From Nostocaceae cyanobacterium CSSed10_463m (GTDB taxonomy: Bacteria; Cyanobacteriota; Cyanobacteriia; Cyanobacteriales; Nostocaceae): 8,666 nt of DNA. Position numbers and translations under genes: made by a program. This document shows positions 1-7,114 of the stretch, piece by piece (the first letter of the stretch is position 1; every line of letters starts with the position of its first letter). The stretch is from contig PWQB01000729.1 of assembly GCA_003556955.1 (NCBI GenBank), forward strand, positions 1 through 8,666. Reading direction: 5' to 3'. The notes under the pieces were generated by a model. The model saw only the letters and a program-made list of their open reading frames with translations. It made no database searches and had not been told where the DNA came from.

Positions 1-30
1 CTAAAGCTAGTATGCCCACTAGCAGTAACA

Positions 31-65
31 GCAGTAAACTTTTAAAGTAGTACTGCACGTTTTTT
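31..65 (+). terminator. Candidate rho-independent terminator of a gene left of the window
   Basis: GCAGTA (31-36) pairs with TACTGC (51-56). Inside this stem, ACTTT (38-42) and AAAGT (44-48) are also complementary, so most of 31-56 folds into one hairpin. Six T residues follow at 60-65, with more T-rich sequence after them. This is the arrangement of an intrinsic terminator for rightward transcription. The upstream gene is not in the window, so the assignment is inferred. The stem is only moderately GC-rich. Confidence 0.45.
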
Positions 66-217
66 CTTTTTCTCCTGAATTTTTGGGTTATGGAAAAAAG
101 CCGTGCATTATGTCTCATAAGATATCGGAGAATAGAGGTAATTTTTACAAAATTCAATATTTTGTCTTTTGCATCTTGGCAATAAGTATAGCTGTCCTAT
201 TTGATTTATGAATTTAT

Positions 218-311
218 CGTTCGCGTAGCGTGCGCGAAGCGCATACCGCCAAGTCGCCTAAAGCCTTCGGCATAGCTTCGCTTACCGCGTAGCGTCTCCC
301 CTTGGGAGAAG
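218..311. repeat. GC-rich palindromic intergenic repeat, copy 1
   Basis: This 94-base element matches a second copy at 1165-1242 in the same orientation. Its first 36 bases match with one difference and its last 26 bases match exactly, while the middle differs in length and sequence. It contains an inverted repeat TTCGCG (220-225)/CGCGAA (233-238) and a hairpin TCTCCC-CTT-GGGAGA (295-309). It is much richer in GC than its surroundings. This is the appearance of the dispersed, MITE- or REP-like intergenic repeats common in Nostoc genomes. No protein is encoded. Confidence 0.75.
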
Positions 312-336
312 TTCGCCAAGAGAGGAGGTAAAGAGG

Positions 337-364
337 TTCACAACTGATTTAGTATTGCTATATA
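337..364 (+). promoter_or_regulatory. Possible sigma-70-type promoter of yebC
   Basis: TTCACA (337-342) differs by one base from the -35 consensus and is followed after 16 bases by TATATA (359-364). The element lies between repeat copy 1 and the yebC start codon, leaving a leader of about 30 bases. TATACA at 363-368 is an alternative -10. The assignment rests on pattern alone. Confidence 0.3.
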
Positions 365-402
365 TACAGAAGTGTTGAAGGAAGAGTTAATCATTTGAGA
401 TT

Positions 403-1158
403 ATGGCAGGACACAGTAAATGGGCAAATATTAAGCGTCAGAAGGCGGTAGTAGATGCCAAAAAGGGTAAGACTTTCGCACAGTTGTCTAGAGCAATTAT
501 TATTGCTGCTAGAAGTGGTGTACCAGACCCCAGCTTAAATTTTCAGCTACGGACAGCCATTGATAAGGCTAAGGCGGCTGATATTCCTAATGATAATATT
601 GAACGGGCGATCGCTAAAGGGGCAGGAACTTTTTGCGGTGATGGTGCTAGTTTTGAGGCGATTCGCTATGAGGGTTATGGTCCGGGTGGTGTAGCGATTT
701 TAATTGAAGCCCTGACTGATAATCGTAATCGCACGGCGGCTGATTTACGTGGTGCTTTTAGTAAATGTGGTGGAAATCTCGGTGAAACGGGTTGCGTTAG
801 CTGGATGTTTGACCAAAAGGGTGTATGTCTGGTTTCTGGGGTGGAGGATGAAGACCTGCTTTTGGAAGCTTCTCTGGAAGGTGGGGCTGAGTTTTATGAG
901 ATGACTGAGGATGACATGGCTGAGGTGTTTACTCAGGTGTCAAATTTGGAGGTTCTCGGTCAGAGGTTGAGGGATACGGGTTTTCAGGTGGATGATGTGG
1001 AGTTACGCTGGATTCCTAGTAATTATATTGAGGTTGTTGATTTTGAGCAAGGGCGATCGCTTGTTAAGTTAATTGATACTCTTGAAGGGTTGGGTGATGT
1101 GCAGAATGTGACTGCTAATTTTGATATGGCGGAGAGTGTTTTGGAGTTGTTGGTTTAA
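403..1158 (+). CDS. yebC: YebC/TACO1 family protein (transcriptional regulator / translation factor)
   Basis: The 251-residue product has the full length usual for the YebC/PmpR/TACO1 family. The family signature MAGHSKWANIKRQK opens the protein (residues 1-14). The conserved core around YEGYGPGG (89-96), the TDNRNRT stretch (105-111) and GGNLGETGCVSWMF (123-136) are all present, and the C-terminal domain ends with a typical LGDVQNVTANFD block (230-241). Members are cytoplasmic. They have been described both as DNA-binding regulators and, more recently, as factors that relieve ribosome stalling in bacteria and mitochondria, so the exact role here is not fixed by sequence. The ATG at 403 is chosen because the signature begins there. 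A purine-rich GAAGGAAGAG at 377-386 is rather far upstream to be the ribosome site. HIP1 octamers lie inside the gene at 607-614 and 1053-1060, as in resident cyanobacterial genes. The gene stands alone, flanked on both sides by copies of the same intergenic repeat. Confidence 0.96.
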   Translation: MAGHSKWANIKRQKAVVDAKKGKTFAQLSRAIIIAARSGVPDPSLNFQLRTAIDKAKAADIPNDNIERAIAKGAGTFCGDGASFEAIRYEGYGPGGVAILIEALTDNRNRTAADLRGAFSKCGGNLGETGCVSWMFDQKGVCLVSGVEDEDLLLEASLEGGAEFYEMTEDDMAEVFTQVSNLEVLGQRLRDTGFQVDDVELRWIPSNYIEVVDFEQGRSLVKLIDTLEGLGDVQNVTANFDMAESVLELLV

Positions 1159-1164
1159 GAGGAA

Positions 1165-1242
1165 CGTTCGCGTAGCGTGCGCGCAGCGCATACCGCCAAG
1201 GCGCAAAGTACGCCTTCGCGTAGCGTCTCCCCTTGGGAGAAG
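1165..1242. repeat. GC-rich palindromic intergenic repeat, copy 2
   Basis: This is the second copy of the element at 218-311, in direct orientation and starting 6 bases after the yebC stop codon. Bases 1165-1200 match 218-253 with one difference (C at 1184 for A at 237), and 1217-1242 match 286-311 exactly. The middle is 16 bases here against 32 in copy 1. The one difference breaks the TTCGCG/CGCGAA stem of copy 1, while the hairpin TCTCCC-CTT-GGGAGA (1226-1240) is kept. In this position the hairpin could help to end yebC transcription, but no T tract follows it. Confidence 0.75.
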
Positions 1243-1265
1243 GAAGAGGGGAAAAGGAAGGTAAT

Positions 1266-1312
1266 ATTACGAATTACGAATTACGAATTACGAACTACGA
1301 ATTACGAATTAC
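1266..1312. repeat. Heptameric short tandem repeat (ATTACGA)n
   Basis: There are six complete 7-base units starting at 1266, followed by a partial seventh. All are ATTACGA except the fifth, which reads ACTACGA (1294-1300). This is a short tandemly repeated repetitive sequence of the type described in heterocystous cyanobacteria. The array fills the space between two convergent genes, and its right end runs through the ABC transporter stop codon (TAA on the minus strand, 1311-1309). Confidence 0.9.
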
Positions 1313-3120
1313 TTGTAGCCGGCAGCTTGCAGGTAAAATAATTTGGCGTAACGTCCTCCGGTTTGTAATAATTCTTCGTGGGTTCCCTGTTCTGCAACTT
1401 TACCTTCTTCGATAACTGCAATTTTATCAGCCATTCTCACTGTGGAGAAACGATGAGAAATTAAAAATACCATCTGATTTTGCGTCAGTGTGCGAAAATG
1501 ATTGAATATATCAAATTCGGCTTGAGCATCCATTGCTGATGTTGGTTCATCTAAGACTAAAATATCTGCTTTTGTTCGCATAAATGCACGGGCTAAGGCG
1601 ATTTTTTGCCACTGTCCCCCGGAAAGTTCTTGTCCACTTTTGAACCAACGCCCTAGTTGGGTTTGGAAGGTTTGCGGTAGTTTTTCAATGAAGGGTTGCG
1701 CCATACCTTTCTCGGCGGCTATTTCCCAGCGATGTTTGTCTTCTAAATGTTCTACGTCGCCAACACCAATATTTTCGCCGACGGTGAATTGATAACGCAC
1801 AAAGTTCTGAAATATTACTCCAATACGTTGACGCAATACATCAACATCCCATTCTTGCAAGTCTAAGCCATCTAAATAAATTCGTCCCGAATCTGGGGTG
1901 TAAAGTCGGGTGAGTAATTTAATTAAGGTGGTTTTACCTGAACCGTTTTCACCGACAATGGCTAATTTTTCTCCCGGTTTTAAATGTAGGGAAATATCTG
2001 TTAATGCAGGTTGAGAACTTCCTGGATAAGTAAATGATACGTTCTCAAAGCGAACTCCATCTTCCGGGTTTATCCCTCTGGTTGCATTACCCCAAGATTT
2101 GGGAACCTCTTCTTCTAGGAAATCGTAGAGATTTGATAAATATAAGTTGTCTTCATACATTCCGCCAATTGATGTTAAAGCATTAGAAAATGTAGATTGT
2201 CCTTGGCGAAACACGGTGAGATACATTGTCATGTCTCCTAAAGAAATCCTCCCCATTGCTGTTTCCACGACAATCCAAGCGTAAGCTAAATAAAAAGCAG
2301 ATGTACTCACTAAACTCAGGAGATATCCCCACAAACCCCGGCGCAGAGTTAAATCTCTATCTTCGCCATATAATTGATGAAATAGGTTGCGGTAACGTTC
2401 TAGCAGGGTTTCCCCTAGTTGGTAAAGTTTGACCTCTGTGGCATAGTCTTCTCTGGCTAATAGATTTTCTATGTAGTGCTGTTGACGGGTTTCTGGCGCA
2501 CGCCAAGTAAATAAACGAAAAGCTTGCCCAGCAAATTTGGTTTCAGCAATGAAGGAAGGCATTGCTGCTAAAATTAAGACTATGACTGCCCAAGCTGAGA
2601 AGTTTATTAATAAAATTCCGTAGGTAACTAGAGACAGGGCGTTTTGTACTAAGCCAAAGGTACGATTTACTAAGGAAAGTGGACGCACTGAGGCTTCGCG
2701 CCGGGCGTTTGTGAGTTTGTCATAAAATTCCGAATCTTCAAATTGGCGTAAATCTAAGGTCAAGGCTTTTTCTAATATCAGTACATTTACTTTTTGTCCT
2801 AGTAGCACCCGTAACAAGGATTGGCAAATAGAAATGCCTCGTTGACTACCTGCGAGGAGGGCGATCGCCACTGCTTCTAAGCCCACATATAATAAAGGTG
2901 GGGTAATATTGCCATCATTGACTTGTGCCGCCAAAACCACTGCATCCACAATTAATTTGCCAATGTAGGCGATCGCAGCTGGTAAAAGACCCGCCACTAA
3001 AGTTAAAGTAGCAAGAATAATGGTCAAAATCTGGCTAGTATTCCAAACTAAGCTAATAGCCCGTCCGCTATAGCGAAAAACAGCCAATGATTGGCGCAGA
3101 GTGGTTCTTATTTTTGTCAT
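1309..3120 (-). CDS. ABC transporter, fused permease and ATPase (exporter type)
   Basis: The 603-residue half-transporter has an N-terminal membrane domain with hydrophobic segments near residues 31-61, 73-92, 160-192 and 263-290, followed by a complete nucleotide-binding domain from about 360. Visible ATPase motifs are the Walker A GENGSGKT (390-397), Q-loop IFQNF (Q438), signature LSGGQ (499-503), Walker B ILVLDE (520-525) and switch histidine H556 in ISHRFSTV. This is the layout of MsbA/LmrA-type exporters that work as dimers in the cytoplasmic membrane. The substrate cannot be told from sequence, and lipids, peptides and drugs are all possible. The frame stays open up to 3207, but the start at 3120 (MTKIRTT) is preferred because the extra 29 residues would run deep into the divergent tab2 gene and add no recognisable domain. 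HIP1 sites occur at 2861-2868 and 2969-2976. The gene ends inside the heptamer repeat and converges on yebC. Confidence 0.93.
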   Translation of the reverse strand: MTKIRTTLRQSLAVFRYSGRAISLVWNTSQILTIILATLTLVAGLLPAAIAYIGKLIVDAVVLAAQVNDGNITPPLLYVGLEAVAIALLAGSQRGISICQSLLRVLLGQKVNVLILEKALTLDLRQFEDSEFYDKLTNARREASVRPLSLVNRTFGLVQNALSLVTYGILLINFSAWAVIVLILAAMPSFIAETKFAGQAFRLFTWRAPETRQQHYIENLLAREDYATEVKLYQLGETLLERYRNLFHQLYGEDRDLTLRRGLWGYLLSLVSTSAFYLAYAWIVVETAMGRISLGDMTMYLTVFRQGQSTFSNALTSIGGMYEDNLYLSNLYDFLEEEVPKSWGNATRGINPEDGVRFENVSFTYPGSSQPALTDISLHLKPGEKLAIVGENGSGKTTLIKLLTRLYTPDSGRIYLDGLDLQEWDVDVLRQRIGVIFQNFVRYQFTVGENIGVGDVEHLEDKHRWEIAAEKGMAQPFIEKLPQTFQTQLGRWFKSGQELSGGQWQKIALARAFMRTKADILVLDEPTSAMDAQAEFDIFNHFRTLTQNQMVFLISHRFSTVRMADKIAVIEEGKVAEQGTHEELLQTGGRYAKLFYLQAAGYK

Positions 3121-3147
3121 GCTTATATTTATACTGATTCTTATAAA

Positions 3148-3945
3148 ATGATCAAAATTTGGCAAGTTGATTTTTATCGTCGTCCGGTGCAGGATAAATC
3201 TGGGCAAATTCTCTGGGAATTGCTGATTTGTGACGCAACACGTAGCTTTGAATATACAGCCACCTGTCCCCAGTCAGCAGCCAACTCTCATTGGCTTGCG
3301 ACTCAAATTCAGTTAGCAGATAATGACAACTTACCAGATACTATTCAGGTATTTCGTCCCCAGTCTTTGAGTTTAATTCAAGCAGCTGCCAACAACTTAG
3401 ATATTGATGTCGAACCTACCCGCTACACTGAGGCGTTAAAACAGTGGTTAGAAGAAAAGCAATATCCCTTAGCCCTGGATAAACCACCCCCAACACCATT
3501 ACCCGAAAACCTCTGGGGTGAAGAGTGGCGGTTTGCTACACTCTCAGCCGGCGAACTCGCGGATGTGTTTGCACAACGCCCGATACCGATTGTATCTATA
3601 CCAGAGTTTTTGAAACCGATAAATCTGGGTTTAGCATCCACAGTCCCAGTTCCTGGTGTCATTATCTATGGTGGCAGAAAATCGATGTATTTGGCGCGGT
3701 GGTTAGAAGAGGCACAGCCAGTAGCGTTAAATTACATAGCTGGCGAGCCAAATGGTTTAATATTAGAAGCTGGTTTAGTTGATAGATGGATTGTGGCGAC
3801 GTTTGAAGATGCAGAGGTGGAAGCTGCTGCAAAGCTTTATCAACAACGTCAACAACAAAGCCAAGGATTGCATTTTTTATTAGTCCAACCAGATGATTCT
3901 GGGATGACTTATACAGGCTTTTGGTTATTAAGGACAGAAAAATAA
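3148..3945 (+). CDS. Tab2/Atab2 family RNA-binding protein
   Basis: The 265-residue product resembles the cyanobacterial homologues of Chlamydomonas Tab2 and Arabidopsis Atab2. Those proteins bind RNA and promote translation of photosystem proteins (psaB mRNA in Chlamydomonas). Recognisable blocks are the start IWQVDFYRRPV (residues 4-14) with ILWELLICD (21-29), the central LPENLWGEEWRFATLSAGEL (118-137), PIPIVSIPEFLKP (146-158), and the C-terminal WLL tripeptide (259-261) that is conserved in the family. No signal peptide or membrane segment is seen, so a cytosolic location is expected. The ATG at 3148 is chosen because the family N-terminus starts there; an upstream ATG at 3091 would overlap the divergent ABC gene. 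No Shine-Dalgarno sequence precedes it. Only 27 bp separate it from the ABC transporter start. The role in photosystem biogenesis is inferred from the family. Confidence 0.9.
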   Translation: MIKIWQVDFYRRPVQDKSGQILWELLICDATRSFEYTATCPQSAANSHWLATQIQLADNDNLPDTIQVFRPQSLSLIQAAANNLDIDVEPTRYTEALKQWLEEKQYPLALDKPPPTPLPENLWGEEWRFATLSAGELADVFAQRPIPIVSIPEFLKPINLGLASTVPVPGVIIYGGRKSMYLARWLEEAQPVALNYIAGEPNGLILEAGLVDRWIVATFEDAEVEAAAKLYQQRQQQSQGLHFLLVQPDDSGMTYTGFWLLRTEK

Positions 3946-3949
3946 ACAA

Positions 3950-3979
3950 TTATAGTAAGATAATAAAGTCATACTATAA
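3950..3979. promoter_or_regulatory. Palindromic operator candidate of the toxin-antitoxin operon
   Basis: TTATAGTA (3950-3957) and TACTATAA (3972-3979) form a perfect 8-bp inverted repeat with a 14-base spacer, so the half-sites lie 22 bp apart, about two helical turns. TACTAT (3972-3977) could also serve as a -10 element 13 bases before the antitoxin start. AGTAAGA is repeated directly at 3954-3960 and 3980-3986. Ribbon-helix-helix antitoxins usually repress their own operon through such sites, so autoregulation is a reasonable inference. Confidence 0.5.
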
Positions 3980-3989
3980 AGTAAGACTG

Positions 3990-4220
3990 ATGATCAAAGT
4001 TACAATTACCTTAGAAGAAGATATTCTCAGATTTGTAGACCAGTATGCACAGGGAAACCGCAGTGGATACGTTAATGCACTGTTAGCAGAACACCGTCGC
4101 CAAATTTTAGCAGCAGAAATGATTGCAGCCCTGAAGCAAGATGCTGAAGATCAGGATTATCAAGCTGAAATAGCTGCTTGGGATAATGTTGTTGGAGATG
4201 GCATTAATGCCAAGGAATAA
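3990..4220 (+). CDS. Ribbon-helix-helix antitoxin (MazE/CopG type)
   Basis: This is a small acidic protein of 76 residues. The N-terminus has the ribbon-helix-helix pattern: a beta strand IKVTITL (residues 2-8), helix EEDILRFVDQYA (9-20), and a turn followed by helix SGYVNALLAEHRR (25-37). This fold binds operator DNA as a dimer. The remaining half is a helical, acidic tail (about 40-76, including W64) of the kind that wraps and neutralises a MazF/PemK toxin. The start at 3990 is chosen because the beta strand begins there; the frame is open further upstream into the end of tab2 but shows no domain. The gene overlaps the toxin gene by 14 bases, so the two are almost certainly co-translated. 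The toxin partner makes the antitoxin role well supported, although the exact antitoxin subfamily is not certain. Confidence 0.87.
   Translation: MIKVTITLEEDILRFVDQYAQGNRSGYVNALLAEHRRQILAAEMIAALKQDAEDQDYQAEIAAWDNVVGDGINAKE
4194..4197 (+). promoter_or_regulatory. Shine-Dalgarno site that sets the toxin start
   Basis: GGAG at 4194-4197 lies 9 bases before the ATG at 4207 and inside the antitoxin coding sequence. In-frame ATGs at 4186 and 4198 lie before or directly against it and are therefore less likely starts. Confidence 0.55.
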
Positions 4221-4566
4221 CTTAACTTATCGACGGGGAGAAATCCGTTGGGTGAATCTTGATCCTACATTCGGGGCTGAAGCACAAAAAACTCGTCCTT
4301 GTTTGATTGTACAAAATGACATTATGAATCAGTATGGATTACTGACGATTGTTATGCCATTTCGACGAGGAAATAAGCAAGCCCCCTATATTGTGAATGT
4401 GACAGCAACAGCAAAGAATGGATTAGACCAAGACCGTTTTATTGATGTTGGACAAATCCGCGCTGTTGATCACAGTCGTATTTTGGGCTTGGTAGGTGTA
4501 CTAGAAACAGAATATTGGGAACTCATTCACACATCTGTAAATGTAGTTCTGGGATTTGCTTTTTAA
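4207..4566 (+). CDS. MazF/PemK family endoribonuclease toxin
   Basis: The 119-residue product has the normal length of a MazF/PemK toxin, a cytoplasmic ribonuclease that cuts mRNA at short sequence motifs to arrest growth. Family hallmarks are RRGEIRWVNLDPTFGAEAQ (residues 9-27), KTRPCLIVQND (28-38), the TIVMPF strand (47-52), and DVGQIRAVDHSRI in the second half. R30 and T47 fall where the catalytic arginine and threonine of the family are expected. The start at 4207 is chosen for its Shine-Dalgarno spacing and because the protein then starts close to the conserved RRGE. It overlaps the antitoxin gene by 14 bases, the usual antitoxin-first order. Nothing is truncated, so the pair looks functional. 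The RNA sequence cleaved cannot be predicted. Confidence 0.92.
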   Translation: MPRNNLTYRRGEIRWVNLDPTFGAEAQKTRPCLIVQNDIMNQYGLLTIVMPFRRGNKQAPYIVNVTATAKNGLDQDRFIDVGQIRAVDHSRILGLVGVLETEYWELIHTSVNVVLGFAF

Positions 4567-4635
4567 ATAAATAGACTGAGTCGAAGGCATAGCTTGTCTG
4601 TAATTAGCCTATGTAAATAGAATAAATGGCAGTGT

Positions 4636-4715
4636 AACTATATAGCTTAAATACTTTTTATTAGTTGCGTATTTTCTTCAAACTATATATAGTATATTTA
4701 TTTACTATGTATAAT
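4636..4715 (+). promoter_or_regulatory. AT-rich promoter/operator region of tcmP
   Basis: A perfect -10 hexamer TATAAT lies at 4710-4715, 17 bases before the tcmP ATG, with no good -35 match at the usual distance. Upstream are a 12-bp perfect palindrome ACTATATATAGT (4682-4693) and an inverted pair ATAGTA (4689-4694)/TACTAT (4703-4708). AACTATATA occurs at both 4636-4644 and 4681-4689. The half-site resembles that of the toxin-antitoxin operator at 3950-3979. The sequence is so rich in A and T that chance similarity is possible. Confidence 0.4.
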
Positions 4716-4719
4716 TGCT

Positions 4720-4723
4720 GGAG
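4720..4723 (+). promoter_or_regulatory. Shine-Dalgarno site of tcmP
   Basis: GGAG lies 9 bases before the ATG at 4733. This decides the start against the in-frame TTG at 4715, which would put the ribosome site inside the coding sequence. Confidence 0.6.
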
Positions 4724-4732
4724 ATATTAAAA

Positions 4733-6022
4733 ATGAGTAAAGCACAAGCAAGCTGGAGTGCCGATGGAAGTCAGCTTCCCTCAATAGATCCTCATACTAA
4801 AGCCAAGCATCAAATACTTGAAACATATCTTGAAAACCTAATTTTTACACTTTATGGAAAAGGTAGATATGGAGAAACAATATTTACTTTCATAGATGGT
4901 TTTTGTGGTGGTGGAATGTACGATGATAAAGATAATAATATTGAATGGGAAGGCTCTCCCATTAGGATCATAAAAGCTATTCGAGAAGGGTATAAGAAAT
5001 CCAAGCGCAAGTATGATTTAAATGTAAAATTTATTTTTATAGACAATAATCAAGAGCATTTAGATTGTTTAAAAAATTATTCAATGCCAAAAGCAGGTTT
5101 AGGAGAGTTAGTTAATCAGCAATCACATGAATATAATGGTGAATTTGGAAAGCTAGTAGAAGAATGTGAATTCAGTTGCAGTGAATTTGAAAATTTAGTA
5201 AATGAGTGTGTTTGGAAAGTAGATATTCGTAAAGGTCACTCATTCTTTTTTTTAGACCCTTTTGGATGGACTGATGTTTCCATGAAAAGCATTAGGAAAA
5301 TACAATCTTTAAAAGGTTCTGAAATTCTATATACATATATGATTGATTATTTGAAAAGATTTATTATTGGCAAACAAGGACAAGATGAAATTACATTTAA
5401 TAAATTACTTGAAGCTGAAGGATATTATGAATCAGCCGATTTGAGTAGATTAGACAAAATTGGAGAACAATGTTATCTTAGAAATGAGTCTATGAGATTA
5501 TTTAGAGATAAAGGAAAAAGTAAATATGTATTTACTTTTTCACTAATTCCAAAAGGAGATGTAAGAGTTTTATATTACCTGATGCATCTATCAAAAAATC
5601 TCACTGCATTAGAAGTCATAAAAGAAAGCTTTTGGCAAGAAAATAATTTAGGTTTTCAATATTATTTTGATTTGTACGGATATGGATTTAAAACTTCTGA
5701 TTTTTATGAAGAAAAACAATTATCTTTGATGTTTGATATTACCAAGAACAGTTATGATTTTTGTATAGAAAAATTAGATAAAGAATTACGAGAATTAATA
5801 CATAATAATGGAGAAGGTATTGAATTTCGTGAGATTTGTCATGAAACAATGGAACGTAATCCTGCTAGTAGAGAGCATTATACAAGATATATAAATATAC
5901 TTAGAAATGATAAAGAAATAGAAGTTTGGAGAAAAGGTAAAATAGTAACAGGATCTAAAATCATTTTACAAAGAAATGATATAATAAAAGAGACTGGAAT
6001 TAAACAGCTTTCATTTTTTTAG
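4733..6022 (+). CDS. tcmP: Three-Cys-motif partner protein (TcmP family), methyltransferase-like
   Basis: The 429-residue product matches my knowledge of the TcmP family, named because its genes sit beside genes for proteins with a three-cysteine motif; that arrangement is seen here. The N-terminal DPHTKAKHQILETYLENL (residues 19-36) is a family hallmark. Three blocks look like a Rossmann methyltransferase: FTFIDGFCGGGMY (51-63) as the glycine-rich SAM loop, FIFIDNNQEHL (100-110) as the acidic strand, and FFFLDPFG (171-178) as the catalytic DPxx motif. The DPFG form resembles the motif of Trm1-type tRNA guanine methyltransferases. The C-terminal region (about 360-415) has a charged, winged-helix-like pattern. 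No membrane segment is visible. The gene is far more AT-rich than yebC or the O-methyltransferase gene and has no HIP1 site, which suggests transfer. Its substrate is unknown, and methyltransferase activity is inferred only from motifs. Confidence 0.82.
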   Translation: MSKAQASWSADGSQLPSIDPHTKAKHQILETYLENLIFTLYGKGRYGETIFTFIDGFCGGGMYDDKDNNIEWEGSPIRIIKAIREGYKKSKRKYDLNVKFIFIDNNQEHLDCLKNYSMPKAGLGELVNQQSHEYNGEFGKLVEECEFSCSEFENLVNECVWKVDIRKGHSFFFLDPFGWTDVSMKSIRKIQSLKGSEILYTYMIDYLKRFIIGKQGQDEITFNKLLEAEGYYESADLSRLDKIGEQCYLRNESMRLFRDKGKSKYVFTFSLIPKGDVRVLYYLMHLSKNLTALEVIKESFWQENNLGFQYYFDLYGYGFKTSDFYEEKQLSLMFDITKNSYDFCIEKLDKELRELIHNNGEGIEFREICHETMERNPASREHYTRYINILRNDKEIEVWRKGKIVTGSKIILQRNDIIKETGIKQLSFF

Positions 6023-6103
6023 AAACTTATGTTTTCCATAAATAGCTTCAGAGGTGAGGGCTAAAATACTAATTAACCTCTAAATAATATAAAAATTTAC
6101 ACT

Positions 6104-7114
6104 ATGTCCATCATCAAAGGCACTGAAAAAATTGCGAACCCTTTACAAAAAAGCGCCCTTAATAAAAAAGGTTTATGTGATTATGTAGTTAACGTAGCAT
6201 CAGGGTGTTTACATGGCTGTACATTTTGTTATGTACCTTCAACTCCAGCAATTCGTACAAAGCAAGCGGAATTAAGAGAACATGGAGTAAGCGATCCTCA
6301 AATGGATTGGGGAAAATATCTCTTTGTTCGTGAAGAAATACCTGAGCAATTAGAAAAAAACCTCAGCCGTAAGAAAACTTGGCATGAAACACCAGAAGGT
6401 AAAGGTGTAGTTCTTCTTTGTTCGGGAACTGATCCTTATCAAAACAAGCAAACTGCTGATGTTACCCGTGGTGCTGTTAAAGCGTTATTAAAAAACAATA
6501 AACGAGTCAGAATTTTGACTCGCAGCCCGTTATGGGTAAATGACGTTGATATTCTCAATAATCGCAACGTCATTATTGGTATGAGTTTGCCATACTTAAA
6601 TGATGAACTAAGTCGAGAGATTGAACCTCATGCACCTTTGCCTTCTGAACGTTATAAAGCTTTAATGAAAGGTCATGAAGCTGGGTGTAGATTATATGTT
6701 GCAGTTGCTCCTACACCTCCTAGTATGACTTTAGATGATTTTAAAAAACATTTGTATGCAGTAATGAAATTTAACCCAGAGGTAATCTTTTGGGAACCAA
6801 TCAACGCTCGTGGAACTAATGGAAAGCGAATGTTAGCGGCAGGATTAGAGTTTACGACTGCCATTATGACTAGAAATTCATGGGCAGAATACTTCAAACG
6901 GCAATGGGACGATATGGAAGAAGCTGCAAGAGAAATAGGGTGTTTAGATCGCCTTCATATTTGGCCTGATCCAGAATTAAGAGGTTATGTTGATGATGCT
7001 AAATTAGATTATTGGTTATACAAGCCTACGGTAGAAAAGTGGGAAAACCTAACAGCATCACCAACTAAACTGAAATCTCATAAAGTATCAAGAAAACAAG
7101 CAGTAAGAGCTTAA
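6104..7114 (+). CDS. Radical SAM protein of the spore photoproduct lyase-like (SplB/COG1533) type
   Basis: The 336-residue product carries the radical SAM cluster motif C35-x3-C39-x2-C42 (CLHGCTFC), which binds a 4Fe-4S cluster for reductive cleavage of S-adenosylmethionine. Downstream blocks match the SplB-like 'DNA repair photolyase' group: LLCSGTDPYQ (104-113), ILTRSPL (137-143), a MSLPY strand (160-164), IEPHAPLPSERYKAL (173-187) and VAPTPPSMTLDDF (201-213). True SplB repairs thymine dimers in spores. This organism type makes no such spores, so the substrate is probably different and unknown. The gene follows tcmP after 81 bases on the same strand, and the pair probably forms one unit. 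No Shine-Dalgarno sequence is seen before the ATG at 6104, unlike tcmP. Base composition lies between that of tcmP and the flanking core genes. It converges on the DUF2470 gene with 12 bases between stop codons. Confidence 0.86.
   Translation: MSIIKGTEKIANPLQKSALNKKGLCDYVVNVASGCLHGCTFCYVPSTPAIRTKQAELREHGVSDPQMDWGKYLFVREEIPEQLEKNLSRKKTWHETPEGKGVVLLCSGTDPYQNKQTADVTRGAVKALLKNNKRVRILTRSPLWVNDVDILNNRNVIIGMSLPYLNDELSREIEPHAPLPSERYKALMKGHEAGCRLYVAVAPTPPSMTLDDFKKHLYAVMKFNPEVIFWEPINARGTNGKRMLAAGLEFTTAIMTRNSWAEYFKRQWDDMEEAAREIGCLDRLHIWPDPELRGYVDDAKLDYWLYKPTVEKWENLTASPTKLKSHKVSRKQAVRA

Follow-up and report, generated by a model that had tools for sequence, protein, structure and literature searches.

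Results

A TcmP gene and a radical SAM gene form a recurrent pair

Do a gene for a TcmP-type protein and the gene for a radical S-adenosylmethionine (SAM) protein that follows it constitute a functional pair, and if so, what might such a pair act on? The question is raised by an 8,666-nucleotide stretch of DNA from Nostocaceae cyanobacterium CSSed10_463m (contig PWQB01000729.1, GenBank assembly GCA_003556955.1), here called the window, in which both genes lie on the forward strand, 81 bases apart (6023-6103; Table 1). A preliminary description of this DNA had read the two as a candidate uncharacterised two-gene system, with the radical SAM protein placed in the spore photoproduct lyase (SPL)-like group. 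The gene order and spacing were as described. The identity of the first protein (4733-6019) was borne out by TIGR04474, which it matched at E 8.4e-41 and 140.6 bits (curated cut-off 53); the three-cysteine-motif neighbour that the family name implies is present as the downstream C35/C39/C42 protein. The latter (6104-7111) belongs to the radical SAM superfamily, as judged by PF04055 (41.3 bits, cut-off 29.5) together with the CxxxCxxC motif that had been noted in it.

Pairing was counted from both sides in 386 cyanobacterial genomes, with at most five candidates per genome scored in the radical SAM search (A2, E 1e-60) and at most four in the TcmP neighbour search (A1). All 12 SPL-type radical SAM genes had a TcmP neighbour. 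Ten of these neighbours were also found by A1, including that of genome G037, where both genes survive as truncated remnants, while those of G098 and G262 belong to the classic, shorter TcmP subfamily (TIGR04474 approximately 216 bits). Seen from the other side, 55 TcmP loci in 54 of the 386 genomes exceeded the TIGR04474 cut-off (56 matches, two being fragments of one broken gene in G319), and a three-cysteine partner adjoined 54 of them: DUF5131 in 43 and the SPL type in 11. Nine of the 55 were scored from earlier locus and neighbour searches rather than fetched again. The sole partnerless locus (G392) has a broken TcmP; the TcmP genes of G327, G094 and G319 carry stops and have retained their partner.

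Among 299 Pseudomonadota genomes, TcmP exceeded the cut-off in 19 (21 matches; 19 loci fetched, one per genome), and DUF5131 adjoined it at 19/19 loci. No SPL-type protein was detected in these 299 genomes at E 1e-40, in a search with no positive in its own draw, the related A2 search being positive in cyanobacteria. The centre genomes of both draws (G003 and G494) were known positives beforehand and are included in the counts. A further tally over loci L001-L091, with 10/91 left out for a short or split TcmP, gave 23 SPL-type partners, 56 DUF5131 partners and two loci without a partner among the 81 retained; of these two, L071 has a DUF5131 gene cut by the contig start and in L087 TcmP reaches the contig end. 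DUF5131 was assigned by motif patterns in this tally and in the earlier locus search, and by an A7-derived profile in the Pseudomonadota and cyanobacterial TcmP-side counts. Taken together, these data support TcmP plus SPL-type radical SAM protein as a recurrent two-gene unit, in line with the linkage that the preliminary description had expected, and the pairing is far beyond chance. Orientation varies by lineage, the partner following TcmP on its strand in some and preceding it in divergent orientation in others, so that a single transcript is not essential.

Pairs were also present outside cyanobacterial chromosomes. A plasmid search with the radical SAM query returned 58 records, 11 covering at least 80% of the query; these 11 and two weaker ones (L123, L129) were read. 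TcmP adjoins the radical SAM gene in 9 of the 11, namely a plasmid of Nostoc C052 and eight haloarchaeal plasmids. It is absent from L118 (Gloeothece) and L125 (Halorussus), and the annotation of the two weaker records shows none. Haloarchaeal records L120, L124, L126, L127 and L128 hold two SPL-type genes per single TcmP. On three IMG/VR contigs an SPL-type gene occurs without TcmP. On a virus contig (L180, 3748-5954), a TcmP-less SPL-type gene is divergent from a gene that, by its motifs, may encode a PAPS reductase/DndC-type protein.

Table 1. Positions in the window of the variable unit, its two genes and their motifs, and the neighbouring toxin-antitoxin genes.
Feature	Position	Strand	Details
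Variable unit, missing from three close relatives	4567..7111		blastn of the window
TcmP, RlmJ-like methyltransferase-fold protein, 429 amino acids	4733..6022	+	ATG at 4733, preceded by GGAG starting 13 bases before; enclosing open reading frame 4715-6022
SAM-binding-type motif D55-G-F-C-G-G-G61	4895..4915	+	D55, F57, G59, G60, G61 invariant (alignment A3, 96 rows)
Motif IV-type D175-P-F-G178	5255..5266	+	D175 invariant, G178 at least 90% (A3, 96 rows)
GMT-like winged helix-turn-helix, TcmP C-terminus	5714..5926	+	PF22560, 32.3 bits (cut-off 27)
SPL-type radical SAM partner, 336 amino acids	6104..7114	+	ATG start
C25, fourth invariant cysteine (LCD motif)	6176..6178	+	invariant in alignment A8 (23 rows)
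C35-x3-C39-x2-C42, 4Fe-4S/SAM-type motif	6206..6229	+	invariant in A4 (63 rows) and A8 (23 rows)
E231-P-I-N234 signature	6794..6805	+	invariant in A8 (23 rows)
MazE antitoxin	3990..4220	+	NF050104, 113.1 bits (cut-off 65); neighbour, outside the unit
MazF/PemK toxin	4186..4566	+	PF02452, 91.4 bits (cut-off 23.1); neighbour, outside the unit

An SPL-type protein takes the place of DUF5131

Linkage of TcmP to a three-cysteine protein is already represented in PADLOC by the candidate systems PDC-M30 and PDC-M41. By our own reading of which models match which proteins, PDC-M30 combines a winged-helix TcmP with DUF5131 and PDC-M41 a classic TcmP with DUF5131. The window TcmP matches component A of PDC-M30 (E 1.1e-22, 78.6 bits), whereas its partner does not match component B (DUF5131). 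A search of the radical SAM protein against PF07505 (DUF5131), a family that the preliminary description had proposed to check, gave nothing at E up to 1, nor did any PADLOC family match it within that limit. The window pair thus has in common with the PDC systems a TcmP gene, an adjoining three-cysteine partner gene and a patchy distribution, but differs from them in the partner, an SPL-type radical SAM protein bearing CxxxCxxC in place of DUF5131, which mostly has a longer first cysteine spacing (the canonical spacing is found in DUF5131 of L026, a Limnothrix, and of L110). The novelty lies in the SPL-type protein substituting for DUF5131. To that extent the system had rightly been called uncharacterised: in a literature that covered few subscription papers and no preprints, we found no paper characterising the TcmP plus SPL-type pair or giving a reaction for TcmP, and, over the same coverage, nothing on DUF5131, TIGR04474, GMT-wHTH, radical SAM mobile pair or Gp37 Gp68.

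All four combinations of TcmP subfamily and partner type occur. Winged-helix TcmP is found with the SPL type in the window and, among others, in L001-L008, and with DUF5131 in L010, L011, L015, L017 and the Pseudomonadota; classic TcmP is found with the SPL type in L096, L097 and L117, and with DUF5131 in, for example, L203, L205 and L206. On a quick TcmP tree partner type changes four times, at least two of the changes being forced by starred branches. An approximately unbiased (AU) test of the 24 SPL-partnered TcmPs as a single clade gave p 0.051. Partner exchange within the winged-helix subfamily is therefore likely, though not proved by the AU test. Comparison of an SPL-type alignment profile with DUF5131 (probability 69.9%, E 4.1e-5, 113 columns in the N-terminal half) is suggestive of kinship between the two partners.

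The predicted folds resemble nucleic acid-modifying enzymes

For the radical SAM protein, structure prediction returned the fold of spore photoproduct lyase, and the CxxxCxxC motif is common to both. Assignment to the SPL-like group thus holds at the level of predicted fold, but not by family profile, since PF20903 scored 11.9 bits against a cut-off of 27; sequence alignment with the lyase is limited to the motif region, and the window protein differs further in being paired with TcmP. Spore photoproduct lyase uses a catalytic cysteine, C140. In the SPL-type proteins of cyanobacteria and haloarchaea (the 23 rows of A8) a fourth cysteine is invariant (Table 1), and it is missing in the TcmP-less viral relative L182. 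The nearest NCBIfam models are the PA0069 and Rv2578c families and radical SAM mobile pair A/B, all far under their curated cut-offs (PA0069, NF033668: 87.2 bits against 360; mobile pair B, TIGR04470: 47.1 against 410). Of the mobile pair, A resembles DUF5131 and B the window protein. Sequence searches of the PDB with TcmP, the radical SAM protein and their profiles returned no convincing relative. Inserts lie immediately before the C42 equivalent in L013 (3151-5124) and L019 (approximately 2197-3225, the short one); they are intein-like.

TcmP is predicted to adopt the fold of RlmJ, the 23S rRNA m6A2030 methyltransferase, which is a housekeeping enzyme with the motif IV DPPY. At the corresponding residues, 175-178, the window TcmP reads DPFG, and it carries an additional winged helix. 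It scores above the TIGR04474 cut-off and falls into the subfamily with a C-terminal GMT-like winged helix (PF22560). The TcmP profile matched weakly (32.6 bits) a gene interpreted as RlmJ.

Several other loci show departures from the simple arrangement. Burkholderiales loci L048 (7209-10234) and L060 (8079-11272) each hold DUF5131 and two TcmP genes, one reading D-Q-Y-G at motif IV in both loci and the other D-P-Y-N (L048) or D-P-F-N (L060). The remnants L029, L032, L047 and L049 lack the end of TcmP together with the beginning, or the greater part, of the radical SAM gene. At L116 (1495-1749) a lone C-terminal winged-helix fragment of TcmP lies beside open reading frames that may encode transposase-like proteins.

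Entire cassettes vary at the site

The window pair is flanked upstream by a Tab2-like gene and MazEF and downstream by a DUF2470 gene. In blastn comparisons with three close relatives (L175, L177, L178) the alignment ended at 4566 and restarted at 7112 in two loci and at 7128 in L178. All three retain YebC, the ABC transporter, Tab2, MazEF and DUF2470 and are without 4567 to approximately 7111; DNA identity is 91-96% over most of 359-4566 and 83-84% past the gap. In G291 (L176) the Tab2-DUF2470 interval is occupied instead by genes for a C5-cytosine methylase and for a BanI-type restriction enzyme (488 bits; L176 7074-9456), which stand where the window has MazEF and the pair. Nostoc LEGE 12450 (L008) matches the window in gene order, with Tab2, MazEF and then a TcmP-radical SAM pair, although the TcmP of that pair belongs to a different subclade from that of the window. 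GC content is 27-30% across TcmP, compared with 41-46% at 1-3600. The empty sites, the restriction-modification swap, the pair of another subclade and the low GC content show that entire cassettes vary at this site. No terminal repeats shared by the two ends of the unit, at 4567 and at 7111, were listed. The toxin-antitoxin genes that the preliminary description had counted into an accessory cassette are indeed MazEF, but they lie outside the unit, as three relatives retain them without the pair.

An Rfam scan of the window gave zero matches. A short open reading frame at 1233-1415, in the stretch from YebC to the ABC transporter gene, has the translation NYELRITNYELRI, which hints at short tandem repeats.

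Discussion

From the constant pairing, the replacement of one partner by another, the predicted folds and the sharply bounded presence or absence of the unit at a single site, we lean towards a horizontally variable two-enzyme module that modifies nucleic acid, whether that of an invader or the cell's own, during conflict with phages or other mobile elements, a reading that we consider somewhat better than evenly balanced. TcmP would be an RlmJ-fold, SAM-dependent methyltransferase-type protein whose C-terminal winged helix probably engages nucleic acid. Its SPL-fold partner, presumably also SAM-binding, would fill the role that DUF5131 has in the PDC-M30 and PDC-M41 pairs; it probably generates a 5'-deoxyadenosyl radical and with it probably performs a second, C-H-type step on the substrate of TcmP. 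The joint role on nucleic acid put forward in the preliminary description agrees with the structural kin of both proteins, which act on nucleic acids, while repair or defence goes beyond that likeness. As a broader and more tentative proposal, which we think possible but would not bet on, the pair may represent a group of defence systems in which nucleic acid is marked in two steps, through polar methyl transfer by the RlmJ-like TcmP and a radical C-H step by its three-cysteine partner. In bacteria and archaea alike, that partner could be either DUF5131 or an SPL-type protein, and DUF5131 itself would on this view be a radical SAM enzyme not yet recognised as such.

A defence role is suggested by individual loci, namely the BanI-type restriction-modification genes in G291 and the BREX genes brxA, brxL and pglZ beside the pair on the Nostoc C052 plasmid (L117, typed as conjugative), and PDC-M30 and PDC-M41 are PADLOC candidates for anti-virus defence. 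PDC systems are termed nonexperimentally validated in a study of 100 P. aeruginosa strains, of which 32 were predicted to carry PDC-M30 and 68.8% of these carriers were phage-resistant (PMC10855318). Among upregulated Sinorhizobium meliloti genes tabulated in PMC12445080, TcmP (SMa2243) is the entry immediately below the defence gene hna (SMa2245), and TcmP also appears in a prophage-gene table (PMC12429752). The passages of PMC10853773 retrieved by term showed no link to the TcmP-radical SAM pair. Several observations weigh against defence. A PADLOC scan of 132 neighbours of 17 loci, compared with 135 control genes of the same 17 genomes, showed no defence enrichment, with 22 families of one member each against 85 families; the focal loci were of both partner types, and the PADLOC models are so broad that the comparison is not a fair test. 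Moreover, the pair includes no nuclease. Given the lack of enrichment and of a nuclease, our confidence in defence is only moderate.

A mobile element might instead use the pair to mark the DNA of the element itself and thereby protect it from nucleases of the host. Such self-modification would suit the SPL-type pairs on the conjugative-typed plasmid and the eight haloarchaeal plasmids, the TcmP-DUF5131 pairs present in IMG/VR contigs and the TcmP homologues, labelled methyltransferase, in five Gordonia phage records; but 6 of the 12 cyanobacterial SPL-type loci lie on chromosome-size contigs (>5 Mb) and no other mobile gene was seen among the window open reading frames read or scanned, and we regard this explanation as unlikely while granting it some weight. 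Repair of ultraviolet damage, with the SPL-like enzyme reversing a photolesion that TcmP helps to find or mark, would fit the predicted fold, yet it is improbable for a pair that is present in only 12/386 cyanobacteria, whose TcmP family is joined to DUF5131 at every Pseudomonadota locus fetched and whose radical SAM protein falls short of the SPL Pfam model.

Still less probable is a maker of small molecules, such as a viperin-like producer of an antiviral modified nucleotide: SPL stands well above (19.8), and the winged helix and RlmJ-like fold of TcmP indicate a polymer substrate. Lastly, the adjacency could be a by-product of packing in accessory islands, the genes not cooperating at all. 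Orphan genes and the alternation of same-strand and divergent orientations across lineages would be expected from it, but the pairings in the cyanobacterial draw (12/12 and 54/55) make it very unlikely, to the point that we give it next to no credence, and in both L047/G037 and L049 truncation has affected TcmP and the radical SAM gene jointly.

TcmP loci are common, with 54/386 cyanobacterial and 19/299 Pseudomonadota genomes carrying them, and no known reaction was found for the family in the literature covered. The SPL-type variant supplies a partner with a nameable fold and a probable cofactor, which opens the function of TcmP to direct testing; the variant also argues for DUF5131 being a radical SAM-type enzyme as well. 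If the substrate is indeed a nucleic acid, the constant association of a methyltransferase with a radical enzyme that can be exchanged would represent new chemistry in prokaryotic conflict systems.
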